Positions 13,283 through 48,946 of a stretch of DNA of 64,000 nt are shown piece by piece. Under the pieces are notes generated by a model that saw only the letters and a program-made list of their open reading frames with translations, was not told the DNA's origin and did not search any database. Where the stretch lies: NCBI GenBank assembly GCA_015068655.1, contig SVKC01000001.1, positions 1-64,000 on the forward strand, given 5' to 3'. How positions within the stretch are numbered: the stretch's first letter is position 1; each line of letters opens with the position of its first letter. Made by a program: the position numbers and the translations under genes. The stretch is from Oscillospiraceae bacterium (GTDB lineage: Bacteria > Bacillota > Clostridia > Monoglobales > Monoglobaceae).

Positions 13283-15853
13283 TTAATCTTTTATTATGTA
13301 CATATACAAAATAATTGCATTTCTTGACATATAAACAAATTTATCGCCTTTTTCCACATCTGCAATTGAACCTGATTTTACAGTGATACCGCCTCTGCCA
13401 ACATCAACAACAGCAACTCTTGTTGAGCCGTAAGCTCCAAAAATAATATGCTCTGTTTCGTTGTTGTGACACATCTTCACCTTGATTGAATTGCTCATTT
13501 TCTTTGTGACTTCAGCCGAAATAACCCTGTTTTTTGCAGTAAAGCCTGTTTCAGTATTTGCTTCAACCCGATGCCCCTCGTCAATTGAGGTATCGGGGTT
13601 ATCAGCATAATTGTAGCGCTTTGCAAGAGTTGCCATCTCGCCATTCGGCGACAGGTCAAAGTTGATTATGTCGCCCTCTTTGATTTGACCTGATTCAAAC
13701 ATTTCAACAAGGTCCTCATCCGTCACTGGAATTTCCTGCACAGTTGCAGCCAAAGCAACTTTAACTGTGAATACGTCCTCATCATCTTTAAGAGACTTTG
13801 AAATTTCAAGCACCAAATAGGGAGCATCAGATGAAACAATAGTCTTATCAAGGGATGCCCCCGAATCACGCCATACCCCCGCTGTTGCATAGTCGTAATT
13901 ACTGTCGGTTTTATATGCTGTCAATCCATAGATATTGTTACCGGCTATATACTGAGGTGTTGTAAGGTCAAAATCCTCGTAACAGGTCAGGTCATCAGGA
14001 ATAATAAATATACTTGACGTTGCCTCAAAAGCAAATTTATTTCCCACAGTGTAATGATAAACCGGCTGATAATACATTGCAGCTCCTGCACTTCTGTTGG
14101 GCGTGTGTCCTTCAATAAACAGTCTATCAGTTTCATCATTATCTTCACTTTCAGCAAGAGCAGTCTCATACTCAACAAGCTTGCCGTCATCGTTTGTGCG
14201 GAAACGCACAAGCTGAGCTTCAACCGAACCATCCTCTGCCAAAACAGGCTCAAGAATCTTTTCAGCCGTTTTTTCACTTTCGCCATTTACTCGCACTGCG
14301 TTTGCACAATCAACACGCTTGTGTTCCCCATCAAAAATTGCCACGCTTACTACATCACCGAAAACTCCTGTTTCAGCAGCGGCATAAAGATAACCAAGCT
14401 TCATATCTGTTCTTCCCGTAGCACGGAAACCCGCTATGCTACCCGACGGGTCAAGATAAGCACTTATGTTCATTCCAACAGAAAGCTTGTTTCCGTCAAC
14501 GCACTTGGGAGAAACTCTGTACTCCTTGCCATCCATTTCAACGGCTGTATATTTCTTTCTGTCCCACATTTTCGAGATACGACCGGAAGCTGTATCAGCA
14601 GAAATCAAAACTGTTGCATAGCGTTCATCAAGGCTTTTTGCCACCCAGAGAATACCGCCCGGTATAAGGGAGGTTATCTGCATTGCCTTGTAGTCTGCAT
14701 CATATATATCATATTCATCAGTTTTTTCTGTATCAAGAAGCACATTGCCCTTGCTGTCCAATATTCCCGTATCGGTTGCACCGCCACTTATGGCAGATGC
14801 ATAATCCATTATAATCAATACATCATATCCACTTGTGTCATCATAATCAAGCAGGGTTATTTCCCCCACCTCAGGAACAAGCTGCTTCTCATTCAATTTT
14901 GAAAGACTTGTTGCAACAGAGTTATAAATTACACTTACATTACCACTAAGCTGTGCTTTTTTGCTGTTGCTGTTCCTTGTATAAAAGTATGCCTTGTCCG
15001 AATATTCGTCTATCTCAAAGCTTTCCAGATACAATTCCTTGCATTTGTTGCTTTTTTCAATCCAGACAAGTATATTTTCTCCATCCTTGCTGCGATAATA
15101 GCACTCAACACCATATCCCAGATAGAACTCCGCATCCGTATTGCCGGTTTTCAGAACAAAATCATCATCCAGACGGATTCTTCCTTCACCGACACCTGAT
15201 GCATCATACAGCGAGCTCCGACAGTTTGCTGTTACTCTGCCTGTATAGTTGTACACATCGTGATAAGCTTCAAGCAAGGTTTTACCCTTGGTTATGTCAG
15301 CAGAAACACCGATTGTTGAATATTCAGTAATTTCAACAACGTCTGCCATAAGCATATGGTAAAGCATTTCACCAAACTCATTGCCCGTAACATTGGCATT
15401 TGCAGACTTGTTTATTCCTTTTCCTATTCCCAGAAGATTCGCTTTGTTCATCATTCCCTCAAGGCTTGCCTTTCCGCCTACAATTGTTATATCATATCCG
15501 AGTGTATAAACAATTCCCGAAAGCACCTCGCCATATGTAACCAGAGTGTCAAGACCTGCCTTGCCGTCATCATACACACCAATTAGCTTTGTCTCTCTTG
15601 CCATTTCGGACAAAGAATCATCCGAAACATTTTCATTTGCATCAATATATCTTCCTATGCACAAAAGTGCCTCCGCATACTCACGTCTCGTCACATAACT
15701 GTCCGAAAAGTTATGGAAAAAGCCCAGTGCCTCAACAAGAGACTGACCCTTCGCCCCGGGTACAAAGCTGTCTTCTGCTGATGCTGTGTATATGCCCGAA
15801 AGAATCATTGCCAAACACAGAACCAGACAAGTTATTCTTTTCAAATTTCTCAT
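13283..15853 (-). CDS. Large secreted protein with degenerate N-terminal SLH-like repeats
   Basis: An 856-residue secreted protein. A signal peptide (ITCLVLCLAMILSGIYTASA) is followed by about 165 residues with three divergent S-layer-homology-like units: YVTRREYAEALLCIGRYI, TYGEVLSGIVYTLGYD and VTGNEFGEMLYHML. The remaining 650 residues are acidic, beta-rich and not recognised; short segments repeat a pattern of exposed loops. SLH units bind secondary cell-wall polymers, so the protein is probably displayed on the wall. It overlaps the preceding SLH gene by four bases (ATGA), so the two are translationally coupled. Function beyond attachment is unknown. Confidence 0.72.
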   Translation of the reverse strand: MRNLKRITCLVLCLAMILSGIYTASAEDSFVPGAKGQSLVEALGFFHNFSDSYVTRREYAEALLCIGRYIDANENVSDDSLSEMARETKLIGVYDDGKAGLDTLVTYGEVLSGIVYTLGYDITIVGGKASLEGMMNKANLLGIGKGINKSANANVTGNEFGEMLYHMLMADVVEITEYSTIGVSADITKGKTLLEAYHDVYNYTGRVTANCRSSLYDASGVGEGRIRLDDDFVLKTGNTDAEFYLGYGVECYYRSKDGENILVWIEKSNKCKELYLESFEIDEYSDKAYFYTRNSNSKKAQLSGNVSVIYNSVATSLSKLNEKQLVPEVGEITLLDYDDTSGYDVLIIMDYASAISGGATDTGILDSKGNVLLDTEKTDEYDIYDADYKAMQITSLIPGGILWVAKSLDERYATVLISADTASGRISKMWDRKKYTAVEMDGKEYRVSPKCVDGNKLSVGMNISAYLDPSGSIAGFRATGRTDMKLGYLYAAAETGVFGDVVSVAIFDGEHKRVDCANAVRVNGESEKTAEKILEPVLAEDGSVEAQLVRFRTNDDGKLVEYETALAESEDNDETDRLFIEGHTPNRSAGAAMYYQPVYHYTVGNKFAFEATSSIFIIPDDLTCYEDFDLTTPQYIAGNNIYGLTAYKTDSNYDYATAGVWRDSGASLDKTIVSSDAPYLVLEISKSLKDDEDVFTVKVALAATVQEIPVTDEDLVEMFESGQIKEGDIINFDLSPNGEMATLAKRYNYADNPDTSIDEGHRVEANTETGFTAKNRVISAEVTKKMSNSIKVKMCHNNETEHIIFGAYGSTRVAVVDVGRGGITVKSGSIADVEKGDKFVYMSRNAIILYMYIIKD

Positions 15854-39267: not shown

Positions 39268-40296
39268 ATGAGTATTCTGGAAACAACAAAGGAACTGCTG
39301 AAATACCCCGGTATTTCAGGTTTTGAAAAAGATTTTTCTCTCACACTTTGTGAAAAGCTGAAAAAATACTGTCCCGATGCATCGGTTTCAAAAACGAACT
39401 GCGTTCTGGGAAATATTTATTCAGAAAATTCGGATGCACCCACAGTTATGCTTGAGGCACATCTTGACCGTATCGGTCTTATTGTTTCATCCGTTGACGA
39501 AAACGGATTTGTAGGCTTTGATACAGTGGGCGGTGTTGACGAACGTATTCTTCCCGGTGCAGAGGTATGGATTCTCGGACAGGAAAAGGTTCTCGGCATT
39601 ATTGGCGCAAAACCACCCCATATTACCGACAAGGACGAAGCAAAGAAAGGTATCAGCGCATCTAATATGCTTATTGATACAGGTCTAGGAGAAAAGGCAA
39701 CAGAGATTATTAGAGTAGGCGACCCCATTTTGCTTGACTCAAAGCTATGTGAGCTAATCGGAGGAAAAATTTCTTCAGCGGCTCTGGATAATCGTGTGTC
39801 CATTGCCGCAATTTTTGAAGTATTGGAAGAACTGAACGAAAAAATACTTCCGGTGAACCTATCCGTTGCCTTCACAAGCGGTGAGGAATCAGGGCTTCTC
39901 GGTGCATATACGGTTGCAGGCGAAAATGCACCCGACCTTGCGGTGGTGCTGGACGTAACTTATGGAAGAACACCCGATGCTGACGGATGCGAAACCTTTC
40001 CTCTCGGCAGCGGTGCAGCAATCCTCCGAGGACCCAATGTCCATTATGATTATACAAAAAAACTTATGTCTGTCGCAAAGAAAAATAGTATTCCCTTTGA
40101 AATTGAGGTAGCTCCTCGAAGCTCAGGCACAACCGCCTGGGCAATACAGACTTCAGGAAACGGTGTTCCTTGCGTTATCATTTCAATTCCCCTCAGGTAT
40201 ATGCATACAACAGTTGAAACGGTGGATTTGCTTGATGTTCAGTGTGTTTGCAGACTTTTGAAGGAAATTATCTGCGGAGGTGAGGTCATTGCTTAA
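39268..40296 (+). CDS. M42 family metallo-aminopeptidase (glutamyl aminopeptidase type), copy 1
   Basis: A 342-residue cytosolic peptidase with the M42 metal set: His65 and Asp67 in LEAHLDRIGLIV, the bridging Asp174 in AALDNRVS, the catalytic/metal Glu pair 206-207 in FTSGEESGLLGA, Asp229 in VVLDVTYG, and a C-terminal RYMHTTVE His. M42 enzymes release N-terminal residues from peptides and assemble as dodecamers. It overlaps copy 2 by eight bases if the TTG start is used, and heads a five-gene operon. A GGAATTTG site precedes the ATG. Residue specificity is unknown. Confidence 0.9.
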   Translation: MSILETTKELLKYPGISGFEKDFSLTLCEKLKKYCPDASVSKTNCVLGNIYSENSDAPTVMLEAHLDRIGLIVSSVDENGFVGFDTVGGVDERILPGAEVWILGQEKVLGIIGAKPPHITDKDEAKKGISASNMLIDTGLGEKATEIIRVGDPILLDSKLCELIGGKISSAALDNRVSIAAIFEVLEELNEKILPVNLSVAFTSGEESGLLGAYTVAGENAPDLAVVLDVTYGRTPDADGCETFPLGSGAAILRGPNVHYDYTKKLMSVAKKNSIPFEIEVAPRSSGTTAWAIQTSGNGVPCVIISIPLRYMHTTVETVDLLDVQCVCRLLKEIICGGEVIA

Positions 40297-41302
40297 AAAG
40301 CTTACGAATGCTTTCGGGGTTTCGGGAAACGAAAGAGAAGTACGTGAAATTATTATTGAAGAGCTCAAGGATTGTGATGTCGACCTTTCCGTTGACAGTA
40401 TGGGAAATCTGGTAGTTTTCAAGCTTGCCGAAGACAAGTCCGATGCAAAGACAATTCTTTTTGCAGCACATATGGATGAGGTCGGTTTTATTGTAACCGA
40501 CATTACAGAAGATGGCTATATAAAGTTTGAAGCAATCGGAGGTATTGACCCAAAGGTTTTGATTTCAAAAAGAGTGATTATAAATGGTTGCCCCGGTGTT
40601 ATCGGCTTGAAGCCCATACATCTGACAACAAAGGAAGAACGACAGACCACCCCCTCTATCGACGAGTTATTTGCGGACATTGGTGCAAACAGCCGTGAAG
40701 AAGCGAAAAAGCTGGTAGAAAAAGGCGATTATTTCGGTTTTGACAGCGAATACCGAGAATTTGGCAATCAGATAAAGGCAAAAGCTATTGACGACCGTCT
40801 CGGCTGTGCAGTTATGATTGAATTACTCAGAAAAAAATGGAATGTAAATCTGGTATGTGCCTTCACAGTTCAGGAAGAGGTCGGACTTCGAGGTGCAAAA
40901 ACTGCTGTCCGCGGAATTAACCCCGACTTTGCGGTTGTGCTTGAAGTAACAACCTGCAACGATATGACCGGAGTTCCAAAGCACCTGAGAGTTACGGAAA
41001 TGGGCAAGGGACCTGCAATTACAGTTCTTGATTCTGCTTGCAAAACAAACCGTGAAACAGTGGAGCTTTTGTGCAATGCCGCAAAAAAAAGAGGAATTCC
41101 ATATCAACTCAAAGGATCCACGGCCGGCGGAAATGATTCAGGGATAATACATCTTCTCGACGGCGGCATAAAAACAGCTTCGATTTCTGTGCCATGCAGA
41201 TACTTTCATTCTGCTTCCTGTGTAGTAAGCAAGAATGACATTGAAAACTGCCGGAAGCTTGCAGAGGGATTTCTTGAAGACTTGGGAAGGAGTGAGAATT
41301 AA
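40289..41302 (+). CDS. M42 family metallo-aminopeptidase, copy 2, probable TTG start
   Basis: A 337-residue M42 peptidase. The likely start is TTG 40289, behind GGAGGTGAGGTCA; a GTG at 40280 would lie inside that ribosome binding site. Metal and catalytic residues are intact: His61 and Asp63 in FAAHMDEVGFIV, Asp168 in KAIDDRLG, Glu196-Glu197 in FTVQEEVGLRGA and a C-terminal RYFHS His. Glu219 (VVLEV) replaces the more usual Asp. It overlaps copy 1 by eight bases and copy 3 by one. Closest of the three to typical M42 sequences. Peptide specificity cannot be read. Confidence 0.9.
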   Translation: MLKKLTNAFGVSGNEREVREIIIEELKDCDVDLSVDSMGNLVVFKLAEDKSDAKTILFAAHMDEVGFIVTDITEDGYIKFEAIGGIDPKVLISKRVIINGCPGVIGLKPIHLTTKEERQTTPSIDELFADIGANSREEAKKLVEKGDYFGFDSEYREFGNQIKAKAIDDRLGCAVMIELLRKKWNVNLVCAFTVQEEVGLRGAKTAVRGINPDFAVVLEVTTCNDMTGVPKHLRVTEMGKGPAITVLDSACKTNRETVELLCNAAKKRGIPYQLKGSTAGGNDSGIIHLLDGGIKTASISVPCRYFHSASCVVSKNDIENCRKLAEGFLEDLGRSEN

Positions 41303-42204
41303 TGCAAAATATCGTTGAGGCTTTTGCTCCTTCGGGATGTGAAGAACCGCTTTGTGAACTTTTGAAAAACAGGATTCAGTCCAAGTTCGAAAAGGTATTT
41401 GTTGATAATCTGGGAAACCTTGCGGCAAGCTCAGGAGACGGAAGACTTTGTATTGAGTGCGGGATGGACAGCACGGGAGTTATGGTAATCACGCCAAATG
41501 ATGAACAGATACGTTTTTCTGCTGTGGGAAATATAAAGCCAAAGGACATAATCGGTCGCAAAGTTGTTTTCGAAAACGCATCTTGCGGCAAGGTATTTTG
41601 TGATAATGAAAAAGATACCGAAGACGCAAAGCTTTCTGATTTATATATTCTGCTTGATGAAGGCTCGGTAAAAAAAGGCGATTTCGGGGCAATTGTCCCT
41701 GATTTCAGTGAAGAAGATGGCGGTTATACAGCTTACGGGCTCAAAAATCGCATTGCGGCAGCGGCTGTCTGCAAGGCACTGGAAAATACCGATTGTGCAG
41801 AAAACGTAACTATCTTGTTTTCCGCTCAAAAAAGACTTGGGGCAAGGGGACTGCGAGCCTTCTTCGGTGTTCATTCCTTTGAACAGATTATTACAGTTGA
41901 CGGATGCACAGATGACGGATGTGTAATTATAGCAAAGGACGAGAAAATTGTTGCAAATCCTGATTTAAGAAAAAAAATTGAAACGTTGGCACAAGAAAAG
42001 AATCTCGATGCAGAAACTGTTGTCAGCGAAAATAACTTTCATTTGGAGCAGATTGCAGTTTCCTGTGGAGCCCCCTGTGCGGCAATAGGCATTTCGGTTC
42101 TTTGTGAGGATGGTGAGCCCGAGAGGGTAAGCAAAGCAGATTTTGACACGTCAGTTTTGCTGATTGAAGAAATATTGAAGGGTTGTGAAAAAAAATGTTT
42201 GTAA
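41302..42204 (+). CDS. Degenerate M42 paralogue, probably catalytically inactive
   Basis: A 300-residue paralogue that follows the other two with a 1-base overlap. It keeps the overall M42 layout but lost essential residues: the metal His becomes Gly (IECGMDSTG, Gly54), the bridging Asp becomes Lys148 (YGLKNRIAA versus A-x-D-N-R or D-D-R), the catalytic Glu pair becomes Lys177-Arg178 (FSAQKRLGARG), and the C-terminal metal-His motif is absent. Asp56 and Asp200 remain. The reading frame is intact and the loss is selective. This suggests a retained non-catalytic subunit, perhaps in a mixed M42 dodecamer, rather than a pseudogene. Confidence 0.85.
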   Translation: MQNIVEAFAPSGCEEPLCELLKNRIQSKFEKVFVDNLGNLAASSGDGRLCIECGMDSTGVMVITPNDEQIRFSAVGNIKPKDIIGRKVVFENASCGKVFCDNEKDTEDAKLSDLYILLDEGSVKKGDFGAIVPDFSEEDGGYTAYGLKNRIAAAAVCKALENTDCAENVTILFSAQKRLGARGLRAFFGVHSFEQIITVDGCTDDGCVIIAKDEKIVANPDLRKKIETLAQEKNLDAETVVSENNFHLEQIAVSCGAPCAAIGISVLCEDGEPERVSKADFDTSVLLIEEILKGCEKKCL

Positions 42205-42618: not shown

Positions 42619-43017
42619 ATGGAAAAGAAAATGTGTATTTTGTATGATAACAGAATTTGTGACAATTGCGGTGAATGCAATATGTGTGACCTTGACCCCA
42701 AAAAGGTTTGCGACAGCTGCGGTGCTTGTCTCGAAACGGACGAGGACTACAATACTCTTGATGTGGATTTGGTATACGAAAACGCAGACGACCCTGAAAT
42801 GTTGAGCTTTGAAGAGCTTTTCCCCGATGAGGCATTTGGCGGCGACCGAAATTGGGATGATGAGGAAGACGAGGACGAGAACGTTATCGAAGACTATGAT
42901 GACTATGACGGGGATTTTGACAATAATGACGGATTTTATGACGAGAATGAGTTTTATTCCGAGGACGACGAAGATGACCTGAGACGTGATTTTGGTGATT
43001 TTTTTGGTCGTGGATAA
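42619..43017 (+). CDS. Cys-rich, highly acidic protein of unknown function
   Basis: A 132-residue protein with a striking layout. The first 37 residues hold seven regularly spaced cysteines (Cys14, 17, 20, 23 and Cys31, 34, 37 in CDNCGECNMC and CDSCGAC), a pattern suited to zinc or iron-sulfur binding. From about residue 75 to the end the chain is dominated by Asp and Glu (DDEEDEDENVIEDYDDYDGD). AGAGGA lies eight bases before the ATG. It ends the M42/ACT operon, immediately before a strong bidirectional terminator. I do not recognise its family. Confidence 0.75.
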   Translation: MEKKMCILYDNRICDNCGECNMCDLDPKKVCDSCGACLETDEDYNTLDVDLVYENADDPEMLSFEELFPDEAFGGDRNWDDEEDEDENVIEDYDDYDGDFDNNDGFYDENEFYSEDDEDDLRRDFGDFFGRG

Positions 43018-43024
43018 GGTTGGC

Positions 43025-43071
43025 AAAACAAAATGGCGATTTTCAAAATTAGAAAATCGCCATTTTGTTTT
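43025..43071. terminator. 20-bp bidirectional terminator between convergent operons
   Basis: The left arm (43025-43044, centre ATGGCGATTTTC) and right arm (43052-43071) are perfectly complementary over 20 bases around the loop AAAATTA. A-rich and T-rich ends give a good T-run in both directions. It sits between the stops at 43017 (+) and 43073 (-). Confidence 0.95.
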
Positions 43072-43072
43072 T

Positions 43073-44734
43073 TTATCTAATTTTGTAAGAAAGTGTGTTG
43101 TAATCAACAATTACTTTTGTGCCATCCGAATATGTAACCGCAAAAATATTTTCCTCAACTTCCTTGTGCTCCAATATAAATTCAGTTTGAAGATGCTTAA
43201 TAGTTTTATATTCTTCATAAGCCTCCTTGATTTTTGACACGCTAAATCTCAGTTGCTCATCTGTATCAATAATCAAATCTTCTTTTCCCAACCAATCATC
43301 ATTATCGCTTCCCTCCAAAAATTTTGAATAGATATAAAACGAAGGTCTTGTTCCATCCTCAAGAACAAGCAAGTGATTTTTAACATCCTTTATGGGATAA
43401 TTCACCGTATCGGTTGTGGAGTTGTAAAGCATTATGCCGTGATAGGCAATTTGCCAGAATGGAACGACCTTGTCAGCCATAACATCCTCAACTACCGGTC
43501 TCGACACATACAGTCCGTAATCAAGATATTCTGCGCCAAAGTCAAAACATCCTTCCGATGAAAAACCGCCAAAGAGCTCATGGCAAAGTGCCATTATCTT
43601 ATGATACATTTCAAGAGTTTCTTTTGAATTCACAGGGTGGTTTTTATCATAACACCATCTTAAAGGAACAACTGTTAACACATCAATGTAATGCAGGCCT
43701 TCGAATCCCAGCTCCCTCACCTTTGGCAGATAGCTTTTTGCATATGCAAGCGCCTTGACGGGACAAAGATCATACGGTCTTCCGCCGCTCCAGCCAAAGT
43801 CATTCATACCAATCGAACCGTCTTCATTCTTGACTACAATATCCTCAGAAAAGGTATCGGCAATGCTATAACAATCCGTACTGTTTGTATGACATACAAT
43901 CTGATAGCCGTTTTTCTGTGCATAAGAAATTAGGTGTCGGAGTCCTTTTTCGCCGCCAAGCTTTTCTTCCACCGGGAAAATTTGCGGCCATCTTCCGTCG
44001 TGTCCGCTTTTATTCCACCCAACCAAACAAAGCTGTGCCTTATCAATACCCTGTGCTTTCATCTCGTCAATCAGGTCGCACACTCTGTCAAATGTGCATG
44101 CAACCTTCATTTCAGGTTCATTTTCAAGTGTTTGTTCAAGCACTGTTGGCGGTGCAGGCTTCCAGCCCATTCTGATACGTATTTCAGGGGCAGCAATTGC
44201 GTATGCCAGTGCTTTACGTTCTTTTATCTTTTCCGAAAGGGGCAAACAAACACCTTTTCCCAGCTGATAGTTTCGGTATGCAACAGCCATATCGCTGTAA
44301 GTTGCATCATTTTCCAAGGTTATCAGCTTGATACAAATATCTTCGTAAGGCACATTTCCATTCAAGAAGAACCGAGGATAAATATAATATTCACCATTCT
44401 TAACGCCAAAAACAAGGCTGAACTCATATTTAAAACCTTCAACTATCACAAGTGCACAGCTGCCGTCTTTTTTTACACCAAAGAGCGGCATAAGGTCCTG
44501 CTTCAAAATTCGTTCATCATCCGGCTTGTCATTGAAGAAACAAAGCCTGCTTCCCTTTTTGTCAAAATCTGCAATTACATAATATCCGTTTTCTCCGGTT
44601 TTGGCAAAGAGAGCTTCATTTACAAGGTCAATATACTCGAGGTTCTCCGGTATATCTGACCTTTTCACAACAAACACATCATTATTTACCGAAACATTAT
44701 ACTTTTTTCCTGCGTTATCTGAAGCTATCCACAT
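43073..44734 (-). CDS. Glycosidase-like TIM-barrel protein (DUF5696/GH101-like)
   Basis: A 553-residue protein from ATG 44734 behind GGAG. It overlaps the preceding iron-sulfur gene by 20 bases. An N-terminal beta-sandwich of about 170 residues is followed by a barrel with CLVGWNKSGHDGRWPQIFP, LISYAQKNGYQIVCHTNSTD, YDLCPVKALAYAKSY and GFEGLHYIDVLTVVPLR. This arrangement resembles DUF5696 proteins and GH101-type endoglycosidases; the Asp in LHYIDVLT and Glu in GFSSEGCFDFGAEY are candidate catalytic residues. No signal peptide. It is last in the iron-sulfur operon, so its substrate may be a glycoside whose other part those enzymes reduce (speculative). Confidence 0.7.
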   Translation of the reverse strand: MWIASDNAGKKYNVSVNNDVFVVKRSDIPENLEYIDLVNEALFAKTGENGYYVIADFDKKGSRLCFFNDKPDDERILKQDLMPLFGVKKDGSCALVIVEGFKYEFSLVFGVKNGEYYIYPRFFLNGNVPYEDICIKLITLENDATYSDMAVAYRNYQLGKGVCLPLSEKIKERKALAYAIAAPEIRIRMGWKPAPPTVLEQTLENEPEMKVACTFDRVCDLIDEMKAQGIDKAQLCLVGWNKSGHDGRWPQIFPVEEKLGGEKGLRHLISYAQKNGYQIVCHTNSTDCYSIADTFSEDIVVKNEDGSIGMNDFGWSGGRPYDLCPVKALAYAKSYLPKVRELGFEGLHYIDVLTVVPLRWCYDKNHPVNSKETLEMYHKIMALCHELFGGFSSEGCFDFGAEYLDYGLYVSRPVVEDVMADKVVPFWQIAYHGIMLYNSTTDTVNYPIKDVKNHLLVLEDGTRPSFYIYSKFLEGSDNDDWLGKEDLIIDTDEQLRFSVSKIKEAYEEYKTIKHLQTEFILEHKEVEENIFAVTYSDGTKVIVDYNTLSYKIR

Positions 44735-45650
44735 CAAAGCTCCACTCCTCTCTCTTTCTGAAAGGTGTCTTAAATTTCTTTGTCAACACACCTTTTTCTT
44801 CAAGATGGATATAACACGCCACATCGCAGGCACGACCACAGATTGAACATTGATATGCGTGTTGTGCCGGCGGATAAAAATATATGTTATCAAGAATCTT
44901 TCTTGCGGTTTCAGGTGTTACTTTCGCCTCTCCTGCAATTATTTCAATACGGTTATCAAAATCAGCAAATGCCTCAGGTGACATAAAAGGATTCTTTGTA
45001 CCATTTGCGCCGTTATAATAAACCGCACATTGCCATGCATCCACATTTCCGTCATTGTCTATGGCTTTGCCGGGGCAGGCATCCTTACATTTTCCGCACT
45101 TGTCACATAGGTGAGGCTCAACAATGTCACTCTCTTCAAGCTCTGCATCGGTAAGTATAAAACAATATCTCACCATAGGTCCGAATTCATCAGTGAGAAG
45201 AGTATTATGAAAACCCTTTTCGCCAAGTCCGCATTTTATGGCAGTATCAAGAAAATCCATTTGAGTTTCAGCAGTTCTGCCTCTGTATACCGCATCATAT
45301 GCAACTTCAGGATTTGTACTGTTTTCTTCTGCCATAATCTGCTGATGACGGCGTTGGGGGAGTGCAATATATCCTTCCTCTTCAATCATCATGGCAACTT
45401 TCAGCTGTGCCATTGGCATAACGGTTTCTTCCATATTTTCAACCGCCATAGTTGTGTACTGATAATATGTACTGCCTTCCTCAATCCCTCTGTAAATTCC
45501 ACGAAGCACACGGAATGCAAGACCAATCACTGTCTTTGTGTCAGGCATAATTTTGAAGATAGGATTGTCTTTTTCAAAACGGCTGCTTGGCGCAAAGCCC
45601 ACAATATCCGCACCGTTTGCTTTTGCAAGCTCTATAATTCTTTCTCTCAT
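44715..45650 (-). CDS. QueG/reductive-dehalogenase-like [4Fe-4S] protein, copy C
   Basis: A 311-residue soluble protein from ATG 45650; a TTG at 45656 overlapping the previous stop is an alternative. It has the epoxyqueuosine reductase/reductive dehalogenase-like core: an N-terminal corrinoid-type domain (ANGADIVGFAPSSRF, KCGLGEKGFHNTLLTDEFGP), then cluster motifs at Cys182, 185, 188 and 192 (CDKCGKCKDACPG), Cys208, and Cys268, 271, 275 and 279 (CSICGRACDVAC). It lacks Tat signal and QueG HEAT repeats. Third of three paralogues in the operon; probably reduces a small molecule with ferredoxin-derived electrons. Cobalamin use is inferred from family only. Confidence 0.8.
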   Translation of the reverse strand: MRERIIELAKANGADIVGFAPSSRFEKDNPIFKIMPDTKTVIGLAFRVLRGIYRGIEEGSTYYQYTTMAVENMEETVMPMAQLKVAMMIEEEGYIALPQRRHQQIMAEENSTNPEVAYDAVYRGRTAETQMDFLDTAIKCGLGEKGFHNTLLTDEFGPMVRYCFILTDAELEESDIVEPHLCDKCGKCKDACPGKAIDNDGNVDAWQCAVYYNGANGTKNPFMSPEAFADFDNRIEIIAGEAKVTPETARKILDNIYFYPPAQHAYQCSICGRACDVACYIHLEEKGVLTKKFKTPFRKREEWSFDVDSFR

Positions 45651-45652
45651 AA

Positions 45653-46543
45653 TCAAAGCTCTCCTTTCAGATGCTTATAACAGGCAATATCACACTTTCT
45701 GCCGCATAAGCATGGTGCATATCCCCACTGAGTATTGGGCAAAAAATCCATTTCTTTGTATATCTCACGGGCAGATTCTGCATCAAATCGCTTTTCACCA
45801 TTGAGAATCGCTTCTCGTTCAGGATTATCCTTCAAGAATTCCTCTGTAATAAAAGGATTTGACTTGTGTGCTCCCTTGTAATAAACACTGCACTGCCACG
45901 TATCAAGCCCCTTTTCGTCTATTGCATTGCCGGGGCAAGCCTTTATGCACGCACCGCACTTGTCACAAACACTTTCGGTCAATTCTTCATCAAATTCAAG
46001 TGGCATATCTGTTATGATAAAACAGTATCGCATAAAAGGTCCGTATTTCTTGTTTATTATCTTTCCGCTCAGACCCATTTCGCCAAGTCCGCAAGCCTTT
46101 GCTGCTTTTCCGAAGTCAATAATAACATCAGGAGCAGGTTTTCCGTCTTCAACCGCTTCGGCGTGAATAAGCTCATATGTATCAAACACTTCAGGATTTG
46201 TGTTTTTGTCACCCTTTATTCTGAGGTTAGGAACAGATTTCTGAAGACAAGCATCATAGCCTTCGTTCTCAATCATTCCACCAATTTTGAGAAGAAATAT
46301 TTCCGCCATTTCCTCATCAAAATATTTTACTCCAAGTGTTGTATATGTATAATACTGACTTCCTCTGTCCATTGCCATATACATCCCCTTTGGTACTGCA
46401 AAACCAAAGCCGATAATAGATTTTGCATTGGGGAGAATCATCCTAGGGTCTCTTTGAGGATTCTCTTCTCCATACACTCTGCCTATTCCACAAACTGTTG
46501 CACCAAGCTCTTTTGCTTTTTGTTTTATAAATTCAGCTGTCAT
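45653..46543 (-). CDS. QueG/reductive-dehalogenase-like [4Fe-4S] protein, copy B
   Basis: A 296-residue paralogue with the same plan as its neighbours: N-terminal ELGATVCGIGRVYG, a central ACGLGEMGLSGKIINKKYGP resembling the QueG corrinoid region, one cluster motif at Cys193, 196, 199 and 203 (CDKCGACIKACPG), Cys218, and a second at Cys278, 280, 284 and 288 (CLCGRKCDIAC). It ends four residues after the last conserved segment. Its start overlaps the cupin stop by four bases (ATGA), implying translational coupling. It is clearly similar to copy C and less so to copy A. Substrate unknown; shared ancestry with epoxyqueuosine reductases does not imply the same reaction. Confidence 0.8.
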   Translation of the reverse strand: MTAEFIKQKAKELGATVCGIGRVYGEENPQRDPRMILPNAKSIIGFGFAVPKGMYMAMDRGSQYYTYTTLGVKYFDEEMAEIFLLKIGGMIENEGYDACLQKSVPNLRIKGDKNTNPEVFDTYELIHAEAVEDGKPAPDVIIDFGKAAKACGLGEMGLSGKIINKKYGPFMRYCFIITDMPLEFDEELTESVCDKCGACIKACPGNAIDEKGLDTWQCSVYYKGAHKSNPFITEEFLKDNPEREAILNGEKRFDAESAREIYKEMDFLPNTQWGYAPCLCGRKCDIACYKHLKGEL

Positions 46544-46866
46544 TTTACCAACCTTCTTTCTGAGTTTTCTCTGGCAGTGCTGCTGTTTTCCACCACAAGT
46601 ACCTCTGCATCTTCAGACAACACAATATGATGCCAAAGTCCCTTTTTCACATTATAAACTTTATACAGCTCCATTATATATTCCTTATCCTCTTCGTATA
46701 TAACAGCATTTCCTTTAAGCAGCACAAAGGCTTCATCCGTCAAAAGATGCCGTTCATCTTCAACTCTTTTTGAAAACCTTTCATCGTAATGTATCATCCC
46801 GATTCTCCAGCCCTCAAAGTCAAATAGCGGTTTCCAGCCCTCGCCCTTATGTTCAAAAATCTCCAT
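46540..46866 (-). CDS. Small cupin-fold protein
   Basis: A 108-residue single-domain protein. Predicted beta strands with RHLLTDEAFVLLKGNAVIYE, KVYNVKKGLWHHIVLSEDAE and VLVVENSSTAREN give a cupin signature; the His in GLWHH may be a metal ligand or catalytic residue. It starts one base over the previous stop and overlaps the next gene by four, so it is translationally tied between iron-sulfur proteins A and B. Possible roles are isomerase, lyase or binding of a sugar-derived acid. Function inferred only from fold and context. Confidence 0.65.
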   Translation of the reverse strand: MEIFEHKGEGWKPLFDFEGWRIGMIHYDERFSKRVEDERHLLTDEAFVLLKGNAVIYEEDKEYIMELYKVYNVKKGLWHHIVLSEDAEVLVVENSSTARENSERRLVK

Positions 46867-47948
46867 TATCTGTCAAGCCTCCATGCTTTCTTTGTTCTTA
46901 AGGGTTCTTTGAATCTGTCTTCCATACAGCCGCCTTTCTTCTCAAGGACAGAAACACATGCTCTTATACAGCCGCCGCATTTTGCCATGTTGTAGCCGAC
47001 CCAACTGGGGAAATATTTTGCCAGTGCACCGTAGACCTTCATAATTTCCTTTTCGTCAGCAACATCTGTTACCCCTTCCATAAGGTCAAGGTCACCATTT
47101 TCATTTTTGTCCCATACGTCCTTTGGCACAAAGGGATTATAATATCTGCCCGCATGGGTATAGAACGCATAGCAACGCCACATATCAATGTCGCCCCACT
47201 CTAAAACTTTGCCATCCAGATTAACTGTTATTGTTTTTCCTGAATTTATAGCAGGAATACATCCGCCGGGACATTCTCTCACACAAGCACCGCACTTACG
47301 GCACAAGGGCTTGCCGTTATACATTTGGTCATACTCATCAAATTCTGCATCGGTGAATATGAACGCTACTCTCTGGAGAGGTCCGAATTCAGGAGTAAGC
47401 AGCATTTTGCTCCAGCCAATCTCACCAAGACCGCAAGCAACTGCCGCAATTCTGAACTGAAACTGCAAATCAGGTGCAACACCGCCTTCACGAGCCGGTC
47501 TTGTAAACTGTACACTTCTGTGGTGTGCCGTGTTGGTTTTTGCATATTCATTTACCTCAATCTGTTCTTCGGGTGAAAGAGTATTGCCGGGGCTTCCGTC
47601 CATATCCGACACAACACCTCTTGCGCCTGTATTACGGTAAACAAATGCCTCATACCCCTCATCTTCAATTACCTTGCCCACCTGATAAAGTACAGCAGGA
47701 GCGTATATTTCATTTATGCCGCCATATGCCATTGACGGATACTGATAAAACTGTGTTCCCTCTTCAATTCCACGCTGAACACCTCTGGGTATTCTGAAAA
47801 CAAAGCCTATACAGCTTTTTGCCTCAGGAAACAAAAACTGCGGATTCATTTCATCAGGTGCTCCATCGAATCTTGACATTGGCGAAATTCCACAAGCGTC
47901 TGCACCTGCCGCAAGTGCCGCTTCTTTAATCACTTTACTGCTTAACAT
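46866..47948 (-). CDS. QueG/reductive-dehalogenase-like [4Fe-4S] protein, copy A
   Basis: A 360-residue protein, the largest of the three paralogues and first in the operon, behind AGGAGGTAAAATA. It has the same N-terminal pattern (AAGADACGISPMSRFDG), central ACGLGEIGWSKMLLTPEFGP, the cluster motif Cys216, 219, 222 and 226 (CRKCGACVRECPGG), and a modified second cluster (CGGCIRACVSVLEKKGGC). Extra segments at about 105-150 and 230-300 enlarge it. Operon order is A, cupin, B, C, glycosidase-like. The three copies are far apart in sequence and so probably have separate steps or partners. A reductive, oxygen-sensitive role is likely. Confidence 0.8.
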   Translation of the reverse strand: MLSSKVIKEAALAAGADACGISPMSRFDGAPDEMNPQFLFPEAKSCIGFVFRIPRGVQRGIEEGTQFYQYPSMAYGGINEIYAPAVLYQVGKVIEDEGYEAFVYRNTGARGVVSDMDGSPGNTLSPEEQIEVNEYAKTNTAHHRSVQFTRPAREGGVAPDLQFQFRIAAVACGLGEIGWSKMLLTPEFGPLQRVAFIFTDAEFDEYDQMYNGKPLCRKCGACVRECPGGCIPAINSGKTITVNLDGKVLEWGDIDMWRCYAFYTHAGRYYNPFVPKDVWDKNENGDLDLMEGVTDVADEKEIMKVYGALAKYFPSWVGYNMAKCGGCIRACVSVLEKKGGCMEDRFKEPLRTKKAWRLDR

Positions 47949-47961
47949 TATTTTACCTCCT

Positions 47962-47990
47962 GTTATATAATAGAATCAAAATTTTCACAA
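47962..47990 (-). promoter_or_regulatory. Promoter of the iron-sulfur operon
   Basis: On the minus strand TTGTGA (47985-47990) and TATAAC (47962-47967) are separated by 17 bases and lie just upstream of AGGAGG and the ATG at 47948. Both boxes deviate from consensus, consistent with AraC-type activation. Confidence 0.5.
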
Positions 47991-48018
47991 AAAATACCTA
48001 AAGATGAAACTTAATATC

Positions 48019-48047
48019 TTGATTTTATCATATTATTGTGGTAATAT
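48019..48047 (+). promoter_or_regulatory. Promoter of the second AraC gene
   Basis: TTGATT (48019-48024) and TAATAT (48042-48047) are separated by 17 bases, with TG one base before the -10 box. Transcription would start near 48054, 47 bases before the ATG. The divergent gap 47949-48100 is the expected operator region for both directions. Confidence 0.6.
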
Positions 48048-48100
48048 AAACATAAAAAACAAACTACAATTTTAACAAAACAAACTTTTTGGAGATAAAA

Positions 48101-48946
48101 ATGAAAATTGCAGATATAAATCCTCATATCCGTTTTGCAGAACAACTCACTTACTCCGTAAAACACAGCAATGTATACGTAAAGGATTGCAGATTATTTT
48201 ACATAATAAGCGGTAATGCAAAAATCTTCGTAGACAATTCCGAAATGCCCTTGACCAAAAACACTCTATTTTATTGCTGTGGGGGAACAAAATATACCAT
48301 CGAAACAGGCGAAACACTTCAGCTATACTCACTGAATTTTGACCTTTCGCAACATCAGTCCGAAATTATCAGACCTATCCCTATGGAATTCAATCACACA
48401 AAAAATTACAGCCCCATAGATAAATGTAATATCAAAGACAGTGATTTTTTGAATTCTTTTCTGTTACTGAAAAACGCTACGGAATTCAAACCTACAATTT
48501 CTGATATTACAAAAGAATACTCAATTCAAAAGGCATATTTCAGAGAAAACTGCAGTTCAATACTCAAATTACTTCTCATCAAGCTACACAAACAAAATAG
48601 CGATACAACAACTAATTCTTCTGATGCAATCAACAAAATCATTGCTTATGTTACCTCAAATTTTGCCAAAGAAATAAAGAATAGTGAGCTAGCTGAAATA
48701 GCCGGCTATCACGAATATTATTTGAACAGACTTTTCATACGACATACAGGCACAAGTATGCACAAGTACATTTTGAATTTGAGAATAAATGAAAGCAAAC
48801 GCCTTTTGCTCAATACAAATTTATCAATATCGGATATTGCTTCCCGAATAGGGTTTAACAGCCATACTCATTTTTCTACATACTTTAAAAAAGAAACCGG
48901 TCTATCACCTTTTGAATATAAAAATAATTTTAAAAATAATATTTGA
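48101..48946 (+). CDS. AraC family transcriptional regulator of the iron-sulfur operon
   Basis: A 281-residue protein from ATG 48101 behind GGAG. The N-terminal cupin-like sensor has LFYIISGNAKIFVDNSEM and LPLTKN-like EMPLTKNTLFYCCGGTKYTI. The C-terminus has two helix-turn-helix motifs (NSELAEIAGYHEYYLNRLF, SISDIASRIGFNSHTHF) followed by GLSPFEYK. It is divergent from the iron-sulfur operon and is its likely activator, responding to a small ligand bound in the cupin domain. A weak AT-rich hairpin follows at 48953-48969. Confidence 0.9.
   Translation: MKIADINPHIRFAEQLTYSVKHSNVYVKDCRLFYIISGNAKIFVDNSEMPLTKNTLFYCCGGTKYTIETGETLQLYSLNFDLSQHQSEIIRPIPMEFNHTKNYSPIDKCNIKDSDFLNSFLLLKNATEFKPTISDITKEYSIQKAYFRENCSSILKLLLIKLHKQNSDTTTNSSDAINKIIAYVTSNFAKEIKNSELAEIAGYHEYYLNRLFIRHTGTSMHKYILNLRINESKRLLLNTNLSISDIASRIGFNSHTHFSTYFKKETGLSPFEYKNNFKNNI

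Follow-up and report, generated by a model that had tools for sequence, protein, structure and literature searches.

What could three neighbouring paralogues of the epoxyqueuosine reductase (QueG) and reductive dehalogenase (RdhA) superfamily do together in one operon? The question is raised by a locus on contig SVKC01000001.1 of an Oscillospiraceae bacterium (assembly GCA_015068655.1, 1.78 Mb, 82% complete), whose positions 1 to 64,000 were analysed as a whole and are referred to here as the window. The operon lies on the minus strand in the order A, cupin, B, C, glycosidase, where A, B and C are the paralogues, and an AraC-family gene diverges from it on the plus strand. In related loci the same genes form a conserved cassette that mostly starts with a further gene, U, and A, B and C belong to a clade separate from QueG and RdhA. 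Our tentative reading, held with somewhat less than even confidence, is that A, B and C are the subunits of a cobamide-dependent reductase that receives its electrons from ferredoxin, is accompanied by U and acts on a glycoside-derived molecule.

A, B and C are truly homologous to QueG and RdhA, a kinship already claimed in the original prediction, which was made from the window sequence alone. Their matches to the NCBIfam models were partial and below the cut-offs, with 34.1, 48.0 and 45.0 bits for A, B and C against RdhA (TIGR02486, cut-off 160.35) and 22.3, 48.5 and 43.7 bits against QueG (TIGR00276, cut-off 200). A joint profile matched PceA, QueG and NpRdhA in the PDB with E values down to 1e-16. 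The AlphaFold model of A (predicted local distance difference test score, pLDDT, 82) was closest to QueG (Z 17.5) and PceA (Z 16.0), with the RdhA range at 15-16, and the next nearest folds were the B12 proteins CblC (Z 9.9) and CblD. The tree that had been proposed along with the kinship was calculated with IQ-TREE from 86 proteins: A, B and C, together with their type-2 and distant kin, formed a single third clade apart from QueG and RdhA, each clade being supported at 100/99. Within their own clade, B and C grouped together and A stood apart. Since this clade includes the type-2 kin, the paralogues arose before the cassette divided into types.

The residues expected at the active site were counted over 75-79 sequences each for A, B and C. 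The CGLGE-x-G region and the Cys motifs described in the original prediction were present in all three window copies. It had also named the loss of the cobalamin pocket and cluster ligands in two of the three copies as an outcome that would speak against it; as to the ligands, all eight cysteines for two [4Fe-4S] clusters were 100% kept in A, B and C, in the ligand order of QueG (184/187/190/194/210/236/239/243; PMC4646009). The stretch GLGExG...FGPxxR, common to RdhA, was kept, and Arg193, which aligns with PceA Arg305 and is without equivalent in QueG (PMC4646009), was kept in 100, 100 and 98% of the A, B and C sequences. The Asp-Tyr-His (DYH) motif, strictly conserved in QueG (PMC4646009), was not present in window A, B or C. 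The motif RGxxRGIEEGT was almost fully kept in A and C and lost in B, in which the equivalent of Glu176 was kept in only 42% of sequences; for these two reasons B looks like a diverged partner.

A scan of GTDB genomes returned at least 559 relatives, and the locus counts given here refer to the best 80 loci, almost entirely from metagenome assemblies of Clostridia from the guts of herbivores (goat, sheep, deer, buffalo, rabbit and others). As far as the contigs reach, B and C came after A in each of the 80 loci. U preceded A in 77, the cupin was present in 27, and the exact arrangement AraC (minus strand)-U-A was found in 57. A Gfo/Idh/MocA protein of about 420 residues occurred in 23 loci and a DUF5696 protein in 20. 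Any other neighbour family recurred in at most seven loci; the cassette thus keeps together as one unit while its surroundings change. At its core stand AraC and U-A-(cupin)-B-C, and the last slot is variable, being filled by the glycosidase, the Gfo/Idh/MocA protein or neither. The gene order of the window, which had been expected to recur elsewhere, was thus conserved for A-B-C, and the exact five-gene order was only one variant, with the cupin and the glycosidase each limited to a part of the loci. The unit including U was not visible in the window, as its genome is a rare case in which U was not found.

Chance association is excluded by the A-B-C order in all 80 loci together with a difference of about 65% at fourfold-degenerate sites, while A itself is still 86% (median) to 93% identical. 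With such divergence at fourfold sites, purifying selection explains the similarity, and recent transfer as the cause of the 90% identity of A was unsupported. Across A, B, C, U and AraC, pairwise distances were correlated (r 0.57-0.87), with values as high in 0 of 500 permutations, and A, B and C were never met apart in type-1 loci. The distribution is patchy: one of eight other species of the source genus has the cassette, in its type-2 form. Smaller related systems were also observed, some of which combine an A-like protein with U and lie near GH28, GH2 and GH10 genes. Loci L049, L051, L234 and L256-L259 hold a relative of two genes, one A-like and one C-like, from which an AraC gene diverges and which has no U next to it; in L234, C-like, A-like and C-like genes follow one another. 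Some cassettes, type-2 above all, carry a radical S-adenosylmethionine (SAM)/SPASM protein (L039:7829-8821, L042:7887-8882, L043:4783-5709) which is related to the tungsten-enzyme maturase model TIGR04317 (W_rSAM_matur), below its cut-off.

U is a protein of about 320 residues encoded directly upstream of A. Searches of Pfam and NCBIfam gave no family above cut-off for U; the best of ten core U proteins reached 17.7 bits against the U32 family (PF01136, gathering score 22.4), and distant U relatives scored 28-40 bits, above the cut-off. The predicted structure (pLDDT 92.6) has the U32 barrel fold, with Z 18.9 to 5d88 over 224 residues (root-mean-square deviation 3.1) and the next barrel at 12.5. 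C80, C189, C193 and C222 were invariant in 50 sequences. In the model C80 and C189 follow barrel strands, which would place them on the catalytic face. UbiU and UbiV, both U32 proteins, bind [4Fe-4S] clusters and take part in hydroxylation that does not depend on O2 (PMC6747719, PMC11574389). U was rare outside Clostridia, being found in one of 398 genomes of a phylum sample at E <= 1e-30. In two other cassette genomes U is not next to A but lies at another place in the genome. Distant U relatives passing the Pfam cut-off (L225 and L227 in genomes G281 and G242; L221 and L228 in G106 and G073) are flanked by nonribosomal peptide synthetase (NRPS) genes or lie within groups of radical SAM genes, which suggests a part for U32 proteins in natural-product pathways.

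The window protein that had been called glycosidase-like matched DUF5696 (156 bits) and GH101 (33 bits), both over the Pfam cut-off, and was closest to GH129 alpha-N-acetylgalactosaminidase (PDB 5wzn, E 2.9e-10). Among 21 sequences, its Asp352 and Glu395 are conserved at 95% or more; they align with 5wzn positions 435 and 478, which we take to be the catalytic pair of NagBb, so that the earlier assignment stood. The Gfo/Idh/MocA protein was nearest to DgpA and GH109; since these matches cover mainly the Rossmann domain, it was assigned to neither. Judged from these similarities, both partners suggest glycoside cleavage. Which of them is present follows A: glycosidase and Gfo loci numbered 12 vs 0 at an A identity of 86% or more and 3 vs 18 below 86%. 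Strict mutual exclusion of the two was not upheld and is a trend only (Fisher p 0.096). The cupin gave a weak Cupin_2 match (E 0.0011, below the Pfam cut-off), with H40, E45 and H79 conserved, and the AraC protein matched HTH_18 (E 6e-24). A cobalamin riboswitch was present in the source genome and most relatives, with or without the cassette, and was rejected as a marker of cassette genomes because it does not discriminate; its presence in the source genome is compatible with a cobamide enzyme without being diagnostic. One lies about 3 kb downstream of a cassette (L108:16952-17140, minus strand).

The following mechanism may be proposed from these data. The AraC protein would sense the substrate and switch on U-A-(cupin)-B-C, in some loci plus the glycoside-cleaving enzyme. 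A, B and C would assemble as one heteromeric reductase fed by ferredoxin, and electrons would pass through the two [4Fe-4S] clusters of each chain to a cobamide, whose Co(I) state would cleave a C-O bond of a glycoside-derived molecule by dehydroxylation or an epoxide-type deoxygenation. Catalysis would likely reside in A and C, and B may be a diverged structural or electron-relay partner. U, as a putative iron-sulfur protein of U32 fold, could perform a companion oxygen-handling or electron-transfer step; in the window genome it would come from elsewhere or be absent.

Several points weigh against this proposal. The tyrosine above the corrin in class III cobamide enzymes is Tyr101 in QueG and Tyr246 in PceA. 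A gapless count back from the shared motif GYxA puts the invariant Glu80 at this position, but gaps are introduced here by the profile alignment; a conserved residue nearby is Tyr70. The cassette is without a dedicated electron donor gene, U was not found in the window genome (at its completeness of 82%), and the cobalamin riboswitch occurs also in genomes without the cassette. In 41 of 73 loci neither the glycosidase nor the Gfo protein lies directly downstream, so the glycoside link is partial. What is demonstrated covers the genes and their order, the cluster ligands, the predicted fold, the separate clade and the co-inheritance; the cobamide, the complex, the part played by each protein, the reaction and the substrate are inferred.

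The original prediction had left a choice between a multi-subunit and a multi-step reductive system. In the second case A, B and C would be three separate monomeric cobamide reductases catalysing successive steps on one substrate, and further steps would fall to U and the glycosidase. This is unlikely. In its favour, both clusters and the arginine are kept in all three proteins, QueG and RdhA each catalyse their reaction as a single chain, identity among the paralogues is no higher than 30-39% (A-B 30%, A-C 33%, B-C 39%), and other loci pair an A-like protein with U only. However, RGxxRGIEEGT, common to A and C, is lost in B, and A, B and C co-vary and stay together in type-1 loci. Their joint retention with a diverged B leans towards subunits.

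Alternatively, A, B and C might no longer use a cobamide and might serve as iron-sulfur electron-transfer or scaffold proteins that pass electrons to U or another enzyme, in which the chemistry would take place. The cluster cysteines as the most invariant feature, U as the most constant non-paralogue partner and the class III tyrosine, which is not clearly kept, would all fit such a role; yet the RdhA-like stretch GLGExG...FGPxxR and the arginine near the cobalt are kept, the nearest folds after QueG and RdhA are again those of B12 proteins, and the A-like/C-like pair exists without an adjacent U. We consider it rather improbable. Slightly less credence still is given to the view that the cassette makes or matures a cofactor or a modified peptide instead of degrading a substrate. 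The W_rSAM_matur-related protein (below the model's cut-off) of type-2 cassettes and L043 and the distant U relatives in NRPS and radical SAM clusters point in this direction, but the radical SAM gene is present in only 3-4 loci, no conserved precursor peptide or synthetase was found, and AraC control with glycosidase or Gfo partners fits catabolism. Finally, tRNA modification or dehalogenation by an ordinary QueG or RdhA, to which the superfamily kinship might point, is highly improbable and was rejected on the position outside both clades at 100/99 and on scores of 22-48 bits, where the QueG cut-off is 200 and that of RdhA 160; a separate QueG-like gene exists elsewhere in the source genome (G000:C3:41434-42114), and the RdhA-type N-terminal extension is missing.

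The features of the window locus are listed in the table below; the open reading frames agreed with the coordinates given in the original prediction. It had described overlaps of 1-4 bases, and these were found for A/cupin (1 base), cupin/B (4) and B/C (4, with the called TTG start of C), while the overlap between C and the glycosidase gene is longer (20-23 bases). The AraC gene was called from a TTG, but an ATG 12 bases further on is preceded by TGGAGA and is the likelier start judging from the sequence.

Table. Features of the operon and its surroundings, in window coordinates
Feature	Position	Strand	Length	Description
Hairpin	43025..43071			perfect 20-bp hairpin, terminator-like; between operon and convergent gene
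Glycosidase	43073..44737	-	554 aa	DUF5696/GH101-type, GH129-like; likely cytosolic; optional member
C	44715..45656	-	313 aa	third paralogue; motifs kept as in A
B	45653..46543	-	296 aa	second paralogue; clusters kept, RGxxRGIEEGT motif diverged
Cupin	46540..46866	-	108 aa	small cupin; optional cassette member
A	46866..47948	-	360 aa	class III cobamide-type [4Fe-4S] protein; slow-evolving copy
Control region	47949..48088			AT-rich, divergent; promoter-like matches only, putative
AraC	48089..48946	+		divergent AraC-family regulator; called from TTG 48089, likely start ATG 48101

Three other parts of the window were recorded. A small protein encoded convergently with the operon at 42619-43017 is rich in Cys at its start and has a strongly acidic tail; it had no match in the Pfam scan. 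Three consecutive candidate tandem M42-type peptidase genes lie at 39268-42204, and the Pfam scan covered the third. An 856-amino-acid protein (13283-15853) had no Pfam family at E 1e-5 and belongs to a polysaccharide locus, which also encodes proteins with GH38, GH94, beta-helix, SLH and 3-keto-disaccharide hydrolase domains.

To our knowledge, class III cobamide enzymes have so far comprised two groups with known reactions, the dehalogenases and QueG. No description of the gene combination in the cassette was found in the open-access literature, in line with the original prediction, which knew of no described pathway of this composition. A third clade occurring in threes, co-inherited with an iron-sulfur protein of U32 fold and often located next to a gene for a glycoside-cleaving enzyme, would bring B12 chemistry into the carbohydrate or plant-glycoside metabolism of the gut, and through the cassette U32 proteins that are still unassigned would gain a concrete context open to experiment. 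It is possible, though more doubtful than the reductase itself, that a third kind of cobamide enzyme exists beside dehalogenases and QueG, one that is multi-subunit, works with a U32 iron-sulfur protein, removes or moves oxygen in glycoside-derived molecules under anaerobic conditions and is widespread in herbivore guts.

Compared with known systems, A, B and C share with RdhA (PceA, NpRdhA) the fold of the catalytic domain, at Z about 16, a pair of [4Fe-4S] clusters and the motifs GLGExG and FGPxxR together with the counterpart of Arg305. They differ in scoring far below the RdhA cut-off, in forming a separate clade of three co-inherited paralogues with a U32 partner and sugar-type neighbours, and in lacking the RdhA-type N-terminal extension. 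With QueG they have in common the fold (Z 17.5), a similar core length and the order of the cluster cysteines (PMC4646009), whereas they lack DYH and the tRNA-binding C-terminal domain, possess the arginine absent from QueG (PMC4646009), score below its cut-off and fall in another clade. U resembles the U32 oxidases UbiU, UbiV, RlhA and TrhP in its barrel (Z 18.9 to 5d88) and four invariant cysteines, but these are spaced CXnCX3CX28C, vs the published CX6CX15CX3C (PMC6747719), its cluster is predicted, it stays below the Pfam cut-off, and it is partnered with class III-type proteins. The cassette glycosidase is similar to GH129 and GH101 enzymes (NagBb, EngBF) over the catalytic domain, with Asp352/Glu395 aligned to 435/478 of 5wzn, and differs from them in being shorter, in matching DUF5696 much more strongly and in showing no sign of secretion.

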